This document shows, in pieces, positions 8,720-32,332 of a stretch of DNA of 39,073 nucleotides. Every line of letters begins with the position of its first letter. Within the stretch, counting starts at the first letter, position 1. Location: the NCBI GenBank assembly GCA_021163205.1, contig JAGGXF010000038.1, positions 1 to 39,073 on the forward strand, given 5' to 3'. Position numbers and translations under genes: made by a program. Origin of the DNA: Candidatus Aenigmatarchaeota archaeon (GTDB lineage: Archaea; Aenigmatarchaeota; Aenigmatarchaeia; GW2011-AR5; JAGGXF01). The notes below the pieces were generated by a model. It did no database searches. It was given only the letters and a program-made list of their open reading frames with translations, and was not told the DNA's origin.

Positions 8720-8815
8720 TTTGAGCTATACATAACTTTTAAATATTTCTTTGTAATATTTCTGCTTACGACGAAACGTCGCAATGCCTCGGTAGCTCAA
8801 CGGTTAGAGCGTCTG

Positions 8816-8855
8816 TCAAAGTTTTAGAAAAAGTTTGATCAAAAGTTTGGGCGAA
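8816..8855 (+). other. tRNA-Thr intron 1 (30/31)
   Basis: BHB: CGTC(8810-8813):GGCG(8850-8853), 5' bulge TG^T (8814-8816), 3' bulge AA^A (8854-8856), inner helix CAAA:TTTG. Confidence 0.75.
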
Positions 8856-8862
8856 ACTTGTA

Positions 8863-8902
8863 TCTGATCTGTCGACCGGCCTCGCCGGAATGATAGCACG
8901 AG
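8863..8902 (+). other. tRNA-Thr intron 2 (37/38), relaxed BHB
   Basis: Outer TCTGA:TCAGA, central CTTG:CACG with one mismatch at U33, bulges TA^T and AG^A; internal hairpin CCGGC-CTC-GCCGG. Confidence 0.65.
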
Positions 8903-8991
8903 ATCAGAAGGTTGAGAGTTCAAATCTCTCCCGAGGCTTAGGTTGAAAAAATAGAATTTTAAAAGATTAAACAATTTGCGCTGTGATTTAA

Positions 8992-27252: not shown

Positions 27253-28170
27253 TCACTTCATAAGCAAAACGACCCTACTGTCGGCTTTTTCATCCTTGAT
27301 GCGATAAGATGAGTTCTCCTCAATTTTTTCTGCGAACGCGCGAATTTCTGAGTGCTGCGGCATGTATGGTAAACCCAAGCGTTCGCGTGAATATCCAACA
27401 GCCATATAAGCCTTTGCCTCTACGAATTTTGGTCCAGCTTTCTCTACATGTTCTGCGTATTTTTCAGGGGTTATCATGTTTAGCCCCTTGACAAGTGTCA
27501 GTCTTATGACAGAGCGATTGAACTGGTTGAGCATTGATAAAGATTTCATTAATTTCAACCAACCGTCAGGTATTATTGGTTGGCAAGTTTTCTTATATGT
27601 TTCTTCGTCAGGAGCAGCTAGCGTTATATATAATTGATAAGGCTGGCTATCAAGCAAACGTTCGATCATATCTGGATTTGTTCCATTTGTCACAAGAAAA
27701 GAAGTCATTCCCCTGCTGTTTACGAGGTCTACAAACTCTGGTAGCTTTGGATACATCGTCGGTTCTCCTGCTAGGGATATGGCAACCTGATTCGGCTCCA
27801 TGGCTTCTTTGAATTTTTTCATATCCACGTTTGGATTTCCTTTGAATCCCTGAAGTATTTCTCGCTGCGCCTCTATTGCTTCGTCAAGTATCTGCTTTGG
27901 TTCGTCTACTGGCCCTACCCATTTAGGATATGTAATGGTTGTGTCTCGCCAACAAAACTGGCAACGTTGTGTGCAGAAAGGCAGCGCTGGTGTCATTTGC
28001 AAGCAGCGATGTGAAGCAATGCCATAGAATTTCTGCTTGTAGCAAAAATTTTTACCTCGAATTGCCTCGCGGGTCCAGCTGCATATTTTAATGGCTGAGT
28101 GCTTTGACGGTCCCACAAACCTATAACCGGCCTTTTCCAGCCTCGATATCGTTTCTCTTGTCAGTATCAT
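27253..28170 (-). CDS. taw1: tRNA 4-demethylwyosine synthase (TYW1/Taw1)
   Basis: Radical SAM CTQRCQFCWRD, SLAGEPTMYPKLPEFVD, LVTNGTNPDMIERL. Confidence 0.95.
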   Translation of the reverse strand: MILTRETISRLEKAGYRFVGPSKHSAIKICSWTREAIRGKNFCYKQKFYGIASHRCLQMTPALPFCTQRCQFCWRDTTITYPKWVGPVDEPKQILDEAIEAQREILQGFKGNPNVDMKKFKEAMEPNQVAISLAGEPTMYPKLPEFVDLVNSRGMTSFLVTNGTNPDMIERLLDSQPYQLYITLAAPDEETYKKTCQPIIPDGWLKLMKSLSMLNQFNRSVIRLTLVKGLNMITPEKYAEHVEKAGPKFVEAKAYMAVGYSRERLGLPYMPQHSEIRAFAEKIEENSSYRIKDEKADSRVVLLMK

Positions 28171-28203
28171 AATAGTTAAATCTTTTGAAAAAAGATTTTA
28201 AAT

Positions 28204-29025
28204 ATGTCTTTCAAGCGAAATCTCGCTGACAGGACAGGCCTGCCATTGAAAGTCTTGCCATCGAGCTACCAGAAGGTTGGTGATATAATATTAATCAAGC
28301 TTTTTGGTGAAGCCGCAAAGCAAAAAAAGAAAATAGGCGAAAGCGTGCTCGATATGTTCCCATACATCAGAACAGTCTGCATGATAAAAGGCATCACCGG
28401 AGAATATAGGACGCCGAAAATAGAGGTCATCGCTGGAGACAAGAATACTGCCACTATACATAAGGAGCATGGCTGTATTTATCGTATAGACGTGGCAAAA
28501 ATCATGTTCTCGAAAGGCAATCTTACGGAGCGCAAAAGACTCATAAACCAAATAAAGCCAAACGAAACAATCATTGATATGTTCGCAGGCATTGGCTATT
28601 TTTCCATAGGTATAGCGAAGAACACGAAGGTAAAAAAAATATACGCCATAGAGAAAAACCCCACATCATTCAGATTCTTGAGGGAGAATATAAAATTAAA
28701 CAAAATAAAAAACATAAAGCCGATTCTTGGTGATTGTCGATCTGTCGTACTGCAAGAAAAGGCAGACAGAATAATAATGGGCTACTTTCCTGGCACGGAA
28801 AAATTTCTGTCTACGGCTTTCTCGCTGTTGAAGGACAAAGGAATTATCCATTACCACAATGTTTACAAGCAAAGCGAGTTGTGGAGTACACCTTTAAAAC
28901 AACTAAGAAAAAGCGCGGAAGCACATGGCTTTGTTCTTATCAGAATCATGACAAAGAAAAAAGTCAAGAGTGTAGCGCCACGAACATATCATATAGTTAT
29001 CGATGCAAAGTTCAAGAAACGATAA
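28204..29025 (+). CDS. taw2: TYW2/Taw2-like class I SAM methyltransferase
   Basis: ETIIDMFAGIGYFSIGIAK; DRIIMGYFPGTEKFL typical of Taw2. Confidence 0.8.
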   Translation: MSFKRNLADRTGLPLKVLPSSYQKVGDIILIKLFGEAAKQKKKIGESVLDMFPYIRTVCMIKGITGEYRTPKIEVIAGDKNTATIHKEHGCIYRIDVAKIMFSKGNLTERKRLINQIKPNETIIDMFAGIGYFSIGIAKNTKVKKIYAIEKNPTSFRFLRENIKLNKIKNIKPILGDCRSVVLQEKADRIIMGYFPGTEKFLSTAFSLLKDKGIIHYHNVYKQSELWSTPLKQLRKSAEAHGFVLIRIMTKKKVKSVAPRTYHIVIDAKFKKR

Positions 29026-29821
29026 AATCAATGCACCACTTGTATATTCTGGGACCATATGGAAGGACCTTTTTTATCTCCTTGATTTTTGTCTTCATTT
29101 TCAGTTTTGATGCTTCCCTGCGCACAAGCTTCTTCCATTTATTAATCTCATTTTCAGGGGAAATAAAATAGAAATGAACAACGCCTTCTGGCTTCAGACA
29201 TCTTATAGCATAAACGAGATACTTGTATCCTGTTTCAGGAAGTGGCATTAAAACACGGTCACATGAACCATAAAATTCTTTTGCTACTTTTTGAACATCT
29301 CCTTGGATGACTCTAACATTAGTGAGTTTGTTTAGCACAATATTGCGCCGAAAATATCTGACACAGGCTGGGTTGAGTTCTATACCAACAACGTCAGATG
29401 CTTTCGTCTTTTTGCTGATTATTATTGGGAAAGGGCCGACACCGGCAAAGAAGACCATAATGTGTTCGCCTTTTCCCACCTTCTCTGCGACGCGTATGCG
29501 CTCTGTGCCTTCCCTCGGAGAAAAGTAGCATGTCCTCACATTTAGCAGAAATCTACAACCAGATTCTTTATGTTCTGTTATTGATTTATTGACACCTGCG
29601 ATTAGCTTTAATTTTCTCAGGCGATATCTCCCGGTGCGCGGTGACGCCTTTTTTAACACAGTTCTTATGTTTTTGTGCAAGTCGAGGATTGTCTGACCGA
29701 TAATTTTTTCGTAATTTTTGAGCTTGTCTGGAATTTCTATTATAGCTATATCGCCGATTTGGTCGAAACTCTTTGGCGCACCTTTAATACCTTTCTTTTC
29801 CAGCACCTGCTTTAGGTTCAT
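29012..29821 (-). CDS. trm5: Trm5-like tRNA (guanine-37-N1)-methyltransferase
   Basis: CRFLLNVRTCYFSPREGTERIRVAEKV...HIMVFFAGVGPFPIIISK...VGIELNP...DRVLMPLPETGYKYL. Confidence 0.85.
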   Translation of the reverse strand: MNLKQVLEKKGIKGAPKSFDQIGDIAIIEIPDKLKNYEKIIGQTILDLHKNIRTVLKKASPRTGRYRLRKLKLIAGVNKSITEHKESGCRFLLNVRTCYFSPREGTERIRVAEKVGKGEHIMVFFAGVGPFPIIISKKTKASDVVGIELNPACVRYFRRNIVLNKLTNVRVIQGDVQKVAKEFYGSCDRVLMPLPETGYKYLVYAIRCLKPEGVVHFYFISPENEINKWKKLVRREASKLKMKTKIKEIKKVLPYGPRIYKWCIDFIVS

Positions 29822-29900
29822 GATTAGAGTTGGCTAAAAAGTTTTAAAAGTGTTTTATCGCTATAATCTCTATACATAGTTTCCACACACAACACGATAT

Positions 29901-29993
29901 GGGCTCATGGTGTAGCTTGGTTAGAGTCTTTCGAGACGACAAACATCGGAGCTTTGGGAGCTTCAGACCCCAGTTCAAATCTGGGTGGGCCCA
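29901..29993 (+). tRNA. tRNA-Pro(UGG) with 18-nt D-loop intron (about 29925-29942)
   Basis: Acceptor GGGCTCA/TGGGCCC, anticodon arm GGAGC-TTTGGGA-GCTTC, T arm CCCAG-TTCAAAT-CTGGG; 93 nt, mature 75. Confidence 0.88.
29925..29942 (+). other. tRNA-Pro(UGG) D-loop intron
   Basis: Inner GTCT-TTCG-AGAC, 5' bulge AGA, central GTT:GAC (3 bp), 3' bulge AAA, outer TG:CA. Confidence 0.75.
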
Positions 29994-30001
29994 TTCCTTT
30001 C

Positions 30002-30103
30002 GGGTCCATGGTGTAGCTTGGCTAGGGTTTGGCGCGAAGCGCCGGACGGCAAACATCGGAGCTTAGGGAGCTTCAGACAGGAGTTCAAATCTCCTTGGAC
30101 CCA
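30002..30103 (+). tRNA. tRNA-Pro-like, anticodon AGG, with 27-nt D-loop intron (about 30026-30052)
   Basis: Acceptor GGGTCCA/TGGACCC, anticodon arm GGAGC-TTAGGGA-GCTTC, T arm AGGAG-TTCAAAT-CTCCT; 102 nt, mature 75. Confidence 0.82.
30026..30052 (+). other. tRNA-Pro(AGG) D-loop intron
   Basis: Inner GTTTGGCGC-GAA-GCGCCGGAC (9 bp), 5' bulge AGG, central GCT:GGC, 3' bulge AAA, outer TG:CA. Confidence 0.75.
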
Positions 30104-30719: not shown

Positions 30720-30892
30720 TCAACATGCAAACCATTAATGGATTACTACCAATAAATTATGAAAAACTTGGCTTAATCGAAGCTTTAAACTTTTAAATCG
30801 GCGTGAACCAATTATTATTAAGTTTTGGCGCAATTAAGTCTTAGTAAGTTGTTTGTGTGCAACCCACACGCTACACATGATAGGTGTTCATC

Positions 30893-32332
30893 GTGTCAGA
30901 AGAGCTTGGAATAACAGTACCTAAGAAGAACTTTGGCGAGTGGTATCTCGAGGTCGTTAAGAAAGCCGGCTTGGCTGACCAGAGATATCCTGTCAAAGGC
31001 TTTCCTGTTTATATGCCGTGGGCAATGTTCATGATTAAACGAATAACAAGAATGTTTGAAGAAGAATTTGAGCGCACCGGACACGAACCCGCGGGATTCC
31101 CCGTGGTTATACCTGAATCGAGCCTCAAAAAAGAGAAGGAACATGTGAAGAGTTTTGAGAAGGAGGTTTTCTGGATAACACACGCCGGTAAGAATAAACT
31201 GGAAGAGCGATTGTTTTTAAGGCCCACGTCTGAGACAGCCATATATCCGATGTACTCTTTATGGATTCGCACGTATCAGGATTTGCCTTTGAAGCTGTAT
31301 CAAAGCGGACAGGTTTACAGATATGAGACGAAAATGACAAAACCGCTGATTCGCGGCAGGGAGTTCTTCTGGCTGGAATCGCATACCGTCCAAAAAACAG
31401 CCGAAGCTGCTCAAAAACAGGTAGAAGAGGATATGAGAATCACGGAAAATGTGATAGAAAACAAGCTAGGCATACCTTTTATGCTGTTTGAAAGACCACC
31501 ATGGGATAAATTCCCCGGTGCAGAATCTACCTATGCTTATGACACAATAATGCCAGATGGCAAAATAGCGCAAATCGCAACAACGCATAATTTGGGAAGG
31601 AATTTTTCTAAGCCGTTTAACATAACGTTCACGGATGAGAAAGAAGAGAAACAATACGCTTACCAGACGTGCTTCGGACCGGGCGTGTCTAGAATCTTAT
31701 CTGCCGTTGTTTCTATTCACGGCGATGACAAAGGCCTGATTCTGCCACCTGAGCTTGCGCCTGTTCAGGTAGTGATTATACCTATATTGAAAAAAGGGCA
31801 TGAAAACAAGGTGAAAGAAAAGGCACACTCGTTGTTTTCTGAACTGAGGAAAAGTTTTCGGGTTAGATTGGATGAACGCAGTTATAGACCAGGATTCAAA
31901 TACCACGAGTGGGAACTGAAAGGTGTGCCTGTACGCGTAGAGATAGGGCCTGATGATGTTGCGAAAGGACAGGTCACTATAGTCAGGCGCGATAGTGGGA
32001 AAAAACTAGCTGTTAGTGAAAAGGATGTAAAGAAAAAAATAAGCGATATCCTAAAAGATATTTTTGATAGCATGAAAAATAGAGCTAAGGCATTTTTTGA
32101 TGAAAATGTACGAGAGGCTAAAAATTACAAAGAATTAAAACAGAATCTAAAACGAGGCGGCCTTGTTAAGATATCATTCTGCTATGAAGAGGCTTGCGCA
32201 AAAAAACTAAAAAATGATACAGGTGCAGAAGTGAGAGGTATTGAGTTCGGGGCTAATGAGAAACCGGTCAATAAATGTGTTATATGCGGCAAACCCGCTA
32301 AAAAAGTTGTTTACGTAGCTAGAGCATATTGA
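30893..32332 (+). CDS. proS: Prolyl-tRNA synthetase
   Basis: NFGEWYLEVVKKAGLADQRYPVKGFPVYMPWA; class II core; GTG 30893 preferred. Confidence 0.97.
   Translation: MSEELGITVPKKNFGEWYLEVVKKAGLADQRYPVKGFPVYMPWAMFMIKRITRMFEEEFERTGHEPAGFPVVIPESSLKKEKEHVKSFEKEVFWITHAGKNKLEERLFLRPTSETAIYPMYSLWIRTYQDLPLKLYQSGQVYRYETKMTKPLIRGREFFWLESHTVQKTAEAAQKQVEEDMRITENVIENKLGIPFMLFERPPWDKFPGAESTYAYDTIMPDGKIAQIATTHNLGRNFSKPFNITFTDEKEEKQYAYQTCFGPGVSRILSAVVSIHGDDKGLILPPELAPVQVVIIPILKKGHENKVKEKAHSLFSELRKSFRVRLDERSYRPGFKYHEWELKGVPVRVEIGPDDVAKGQVTIVRRDSGKKLAVSEKDVKKKISDILKDIFDSMKNRAKAFFDENVREAKNYKELKQNLKRGGLVKISFCYEEACAKKLKNDTGAEVRGIEFGANEKPVNKCVICGKPAKKVVYVARAY

Follow-up and report, generated by a model that had tools for sequence, protein, structure and literature searches.

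The inserts that interrupt the D arms of two tandem tRNA-Pro genes raise the question of whether they are introns removed by protein splicing and, if so, where the splice sites lie and what tRNAs result. The genes are in a stretch of 39,073 nucleotides, here called the window, which is contig 6 of a 42-contig, 811-kb Aenigmatarchaeota MAG (G000) that is 91% complete. The tandem pair claimed in a sequence-only reading of the window was borne out, a UGG gene and an AGG gene lying 8 nt apart (Table 1), and this short spacer makes it probable that they are transcribed together. In both genes the acceptor, anticodon, and T arms are complete, and both have in common GTGTAGCTTGG[T/C]TAG...CATCGG with the D-arm insert between TAG and CATCGG. 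ARAGORN called 0 tRNAs in the window and an Rfam search at the window level missed both genes. When the whole genome was searched with Rfam the UGG gene was found with 43.4 bits and the AGG gene by its T arm only, with 13.3 bits. The genome G001 of the same genus retains both genes and both introns. The only further tRNA-Pro gene found in G000 has the anticodon CGG.

Table 1. Positions of the tRNA-Pro genes, their parts, and related genes (window coordinates; EndA on contig C18 of the same genome)
Feature	Position	Strand	Basis
tRNA-Pro(UGG) gene, 93 nt with 19-nt intron; 74-nt product, CCA not encoded	29901..29993	+	RF00005 43.4 bits, orthology
Intron A, AGTCTTTCGAGACGACAAA, 19 nt, Sprinzl 22/23; 4-bp hairpin, UUCG loop; central helix GGTT:GACA; bulges AG|A, AA|C	29925..29943	+	intronless orthologues
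Spacer TTCCTTTC, 8 nt, between both tRNA-Pro genes	29994..30001	+	sequence
tRNA-Pro(AGG) gene, 102 nt with 28-nt intron; 74-nt product; anticodon AGG (A34), 7-nt loop TTAGGGA	30002..30103	+	orthology; intronless orthologue in G007 is AGG by ARAGORN
Intron B, GGTTTGGCGCGAAGCGCCGGACGGCAAA, 28 nt, Sprinzl 22/23; 9-bp GC-rich hairpin; central helix GGCT:GGCA; bulges AG|G, AA|C	30026..30053	+	orthology; fold z -2.9
Prolyl-tRNA synthetase gene, downstream of the tRNA-Pro pair; context	30884..32332	+	tRNA-synt_2b, HGTP_anticodon, ProRS-C_1
Trm5/TYW2-type tRNA methyltransferase gene, just upstream, divergent	29012..29821	-	TRM5-TYW2_MTfase, TYW2_N_2
Second Trm5/TYW2-type methyltransferase copy	28204-29025	+	TRM5-TYW2_MTfase, TYW2_N_2
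EndA gene of G000	C18:10724-11002	-	PF01974 E = 2.7e-28; TIGR00324 endA 111.8 bits vs cut-off 59.6

Automatic gene models put the junctions of both genes 1-10 nt off and orthology was used instead. Intronless orthologues in G007, G032, G006, G009, G031, G056, and G039 read [T/C]TAG|CAT with no intervening A (G007 GGTTAGCATCGG, G032 GGCCTAGCATCGG, G006 GGTTAGCATCGG, G009 GGTCTAGCATTAG, G031 GGACTAGCATCGG, G039 GGTCTAGCATCGG). An A in front of CAT is lacking in these genes, which gives introns of 19 and 28 nt, products of 74 nt, and the site 22/23; the conserved A then falls at position 21. With the insert removed the 74-nt products align with intronless tRNA-Pro at identities of up to 95%, the value for the spliced UGG product against the intronless AGG gene of G007. 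Site 22/23 is in the D stem and not in the D loop, where the inserts had been placed, and it has already been listed among the non-canonical intron positions of archaea (PMC4090602). The junction proposed earlier, TTAG|...|ACATC, holds on its TAG side but is one base off on its ACATC side, and the inserts of 18 and 27 nt and the spliced products of 75 nt given with it have to be corrected by one base each. The UUCG-capped hairpin and the 9-bp GC-rich hairpin described in the inserts are seen in the sequence. That earlier register (AG|A...AA|A; central helix of 3 bp, 75-nt tRNA, 11-nt D loop) draws on 3-nt bulges AGA and AAA beside a 3-bp helix that are discernible in the sequence, and RNAfold gives three GUU:AAC pairs or a 3-bp GCU:GGC helix. 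It is nevertheless very improbable, for every intronless orthologue examined has TAG|CAT without the extra A, this A would place G and not A at position 21, and a 3-bp central helix is not the standard BHB form, which is 4 nt (PMC6379350).

In the orthologue-based register the BHB of each window gene has two 3-nt bulges and a 4-nt central helix made of three pairs and a terminal G-A mismatch, a slightly relaxed form, and its outer helix is weak. The bulges AGA/AGG and AAA that had been pointed out can be seen in the sequence. Introns at 22/23 with a conserved BHB layout and 3-4 central pairs occur in seven tRNA-Pro genes of G000, G001, G008, G017, and G024; the distant ones, in CGG genes of G008 and G024 and a UGG gene of G017, have four central pairs including G-C at the second pair. 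Across the seven genes this second pair is T-A, C-G, T-G, or G-C. It had been argued that the window genes differ here by a compensatory T-A to C-G change. The difference between GTT:GAC and GCT:GGC is real but it is not a single compensatory change, for G001, the sister species, has GGTT opposite GGCA in each of the two genes, that is, a T-G wobble at the pair in question. The T-A and C-G states of the window are thus two separate one-sided steps from the T-G wobble, one in an intron and one in an exon. Such steps are compatible with selection for pairing, not with a double compensatory change. Genomes with the exact layout are too few for classical covariation statistics: a scan of 160 genomes of the class found the exact 22/23 layout only in G000, G001, and G150, and in GTDB r220 only two records had it, both from Aenigmatarchaeota. 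The introns of G008, G017, and G024 came from a separate sequence search and not from the layout scan. The tRNA-Pro insert of G150, which is at the same place, does not fit since it has one central pair only; either the motif is a relaxed one or the insert may have been wrongly placed. This gene, tRNA-Pro(UGG) at L055 (3850-4080) of G150 (RS_17_31), is interrupted twice, by the poorly pairing insert at the D-stem site and by a second insert at about 59/60 in the T loop.

That spliced BHB introns are under selection, as had been proposed, is well supported by the intronless orthologues, by the seven 22/23 tRNA-Pro introns, and by a swap test on the 36 introns of the genome. In this test the junctions were re-optimised in every native and chimeric construct, and the central-helix score was 3.39 for native and 2.67 for swapped combinations (Mann-Whitney p = 7e-9, the swaps not being independent of each other). 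Choosing the junctions without a BHB term gave only a weak pairing excess, and junctions were poorly picked by that variant. An initial genome-wide pairing test was dropped as partly circular because its junctions had been chosen by BHB score, and the re-optimised swap test superseded it. Folding statistics were also rejected as proof: against shuffles the 38-nt motif of the second gene has z = -2.9, but the 29-nt motif of the first gene is no better than the shuffles. Because folding alone gives z = 0.06 for it, the motif of the first gene is established by homology.

A splicing endonuclease of the EndA type is encoded in G000 by a 202-aa open frame, and no second EndA was found in this genome even at E <= 10. 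Among solved structures the nearest is 3iey_A, the catalytic subunit from Nanoarchaeum equitans. Both proteins have an insertion (KKGPKSQKEH in G000) that lies between the catalytic Tyr and His and is absent from M. jannaschii. Compared with M. jannaschii there is no insertion at the presumed site, ahead of the EndA core, of the lysine-bearing CSL/ASL loop of broad-specificity EndA, a placement that rests on the residue numbers in PMC6379350. The Tyr-His insertion alone does not explain the intron load because the EndA of the intron-poor genome G007 has a similar one. Single-subunit alpha4 enzymes have been described as strict for canonical BHBs, and cleavage of relaxed or displaced motifs has been tied to two-subunit or epsilon2 enzymes (PMC6379350). 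Since EndA is single-copy here and yet alpha4 enzymes are strict, it must be assumed either that a divergent partner subunit escapes the profile or that the single-gene enzyme of G000, as a homotetramer, is broad. In G006, G011, G032, and G039 a second, longer EndA (410-455 aa) is present beside the short one.

The gene models, the junctions set by orthology, the BHB pairing, and the encoded EndA are read directly from the DNA, and from them we infer transcription, cleavage, ligation, and the role of EndA as the enzyme. Close to its 3' end the intron has G[A/G]CA, with which GG[T/C]T of the D loop would pair in the precursor, and the hairpin of the intron itself would stack on the other side of this central helix to form the BHB. 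Both bulges would be cut by the EndA-type enzyme of the genome, and the exons would be joined by a ligase, yielding tRNAs of 74 nt in which position 21 is the conserved A. RtcB is the tRNA-exon ligase in other archaea. Both genes could instead be decayed or non-functional copies that carry insertions and are not spliced, as D-arm insertions can mark tRNA pseudogenes in eukaryotes (PMC4090602) and ARAGORN calls neither gene. This is hardly credible, given that the stems, loops, and acceptor pairs are intact once the insert is removed, that G001 keeps both genes, and that only one further tRNA-Pro, with anticodon CGG, was found in the genome. Furthermore, all other resolved tRNA genes are interrupted too, and a genome cannot lack every functional tRNA. 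We are therefore left with tandem tRNA-Pro(UGG) and tRNA-Pro(AGG) genes, probably co-transcribed, each of which very probably has a short protein-spliced intron at 22/23 of the D stem, held in a BHB and cut by EndA to give 74-nt tRNAs.

The interruption of the whole tRNA set had gone unnoticed in the sequence-only reading. All 26 resolved tRNA genes of G000 carry one or two introns each, 36 in total. Those of the D arm lie between 15/16 and 22/23, and others are at 37/38 and at a few further places, although some junctions may be a few bases off. The stretches around tRNA candidates were examined, and these 26 genes are a subset of the full set, since genes with T-loop introns would be missed. 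An Rfam search of G000 gave no strong full-length tRNA match of normal length and the same search of G007, which is of the same order, gave mostly intronless tRNA genes; intron load thus varies within the order. The tRNA gene at window 8786-8938 (RF00005, 51 bits) has about 80-89 nt inserted, apparently as two introns. For G000 the two tRNA-Pro introns are ordinary, and total interruption is an extreme but known condition. It resembles that of the Asgard Atabeyarchaeia and Freyarchaeia, in which nearly all tRNA genes (92-95%) have introns, many at non-canonical positions and many with two per gene (PMC11291895). Here, in contrast, 26 of 26 resolved genes from an incomplete tRNA set are interrupted, in a DPANN-type archaeon with a genome below 1 Mb. 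The window introns also share the 22/23 site, short length, 3-nt-bulge BHB, and D-arm location with the non-canonical introns of Crenarchaeota (Thermoproteales) and Nanoarchaeota, which lie at 20/21, 22/23, 25/26, and other positions and likewise occur several to a tRNA within the same genome (PMC4090602); they differ in the Aenigmatarchaeota host, in the terminal G-A mismatch of the central helix, and in the single NEQ-like EndA gene found. D-arm splicing, already known in archaea, is thereby extended to Aenigmatarchaeota, in a genome where all of the resolved tRNA genes are interrupted. Such genomes appear tRNA-poor because standard tRNA finders miss genes interrupted in this way. The order, to which the intron-poor G007 also belongs, lends itself to studies of how introns are gained, lost, and exchanged and of the range of substrates open to an EndA that is apparently encoded by one gene.

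Exchange is suggested by the two tRNA-Pro genes themselves. In G001, intron B (28/28 identical) is in the UGG gene and intron A, with one change, is in the AGG gene, the opposite of the window, and it is likely, judging from these sequences, that the tandem genes have exchanged introns. The swapped arrangement might be an assembly error and involve no recombination or intron transfer, since an N run separates both genes in G001, its coverage is about 9x by the contig name, and the copies have up to about 20 identical bases in common. We consider this unlikely because in both genomes the acceptor, intron, and anticodon arm of each gene lie on one unbroken sequence, and the shared stretches, at no more than about 20 nt, are shorter than usual assembly k-mers. 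Near-identical 16-nt introns are also found in G000 in tRNA-Ile(GAU) and tRNA-Phe(GAA), on C2 and C18 (19/20; agatgcaatcgggcaa / agacgcagtcgggcaa), and their near-identity suggests intron transfer. Near-identical introns in different tRNAs likewise mark the intron transposition of Thermoproteales, as Fujishima et al. 2010 is cited in PMC4090602 and PMC3293823, and the counterparts here are the Ile/Phe pair and the A/B exchange of G001. Unlike the cases described in those accounts, the exchange here is between adjacent tandem isoacceptor genes, for which gene conversion is a simple alternative.

The introns belong to a known kind, and the part of this locus most worth following is the anticodon of the second gene, to which the earlier reading had also given no attention. 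Its loop TTAGGGA gives AGG, with A34 (window 30063-30071). According to reviews, archaea lack A34 tRNAs (PMC11066159; PMC8007984), and a survey of 167 archaeal genomes found them in only a few single genomes (PMC6000648). By pattern search tRNA-Pro(AGG) is present in 17 of 160 genomes of the class (G000, G001, G002, G005, G006, G007, G016, G020, G028, G035, G042, G048, G054, G139, G151, G155, and G159). In the same search tRNA-Pro(GGG) was found in other genomes of the class and 0 genomes had both, an exclusion that carries no statistics over the class since detection per genome is too incomplete. The cleanest case is G007 (94% complete, intron-poor, 34 tRNAs resolved), in which the gene is at G007:C48:6333-6406; by ARAGORN its proline tRNAs are AGG, UGG, and CGG, and a G34 tRNA is present for each of the Ala, Val, Gly, Ser, Thr, Arg, and Leu boxes. 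Another gene of this genome, at G007:C44:1110-1218, encodes tRNA-Ile(UAU) and has an intron at 37/38; the UAU anticodon has been reported as nearly absent from archaea (PMC6000648).

In the seven genomes compared, AGG genes are nearest to UGG genes (89-95%), versus 73-86% to GGG genes. No TadA was found in G000 (91% complete): its sole deaminase-superfamily gene is best matched to ComEB (dCMP deaminase type) and scores 40.5 bits against the TadA model, whose cut-off is 150. The TadA candidates of G000, G001, and G007 were all rejected as dCMP-type deaminases. CCC makes up 12% of the proline codons in the window genes and so must be decoded, and a tRNA-Pro with unmodified A34 decodes CCU and CCC to a similar extent in E. 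coli (PMC11066159). From the gene content, tRNA-Pro(AGG) would read both CCU and CCC and replace the usual archaeal GGG tRNA. We think it probable that an Aenigmatarchaeota lineage has fixed A34, AGG having replaced GGG and having arisen from UGG by anticodon change, perhaps repeatedly, and that it decodes CCU and CCC unmodified without TadA. No earlier report of an archaeal tRNA-Pro(AGG) was found in the openly searchable literature, subscription literature and tRNA databases being outside this search. If transcribed and unmodified, this tRNA contradicts the rule that archaea do without A34 anticodons and would allow the reading of the proline box by unmodified A34 to be tested in a natural system.

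Close to the tRNA-Pro pair (27253-30103 and 30884-32332) are a Taw1-type wyosine-forming radical SAM protein, the two Trm5/TYW2-type methyltransferases, and ProRS, and by their proximity these genes may form a cluster for G37 modification and proline decoding.
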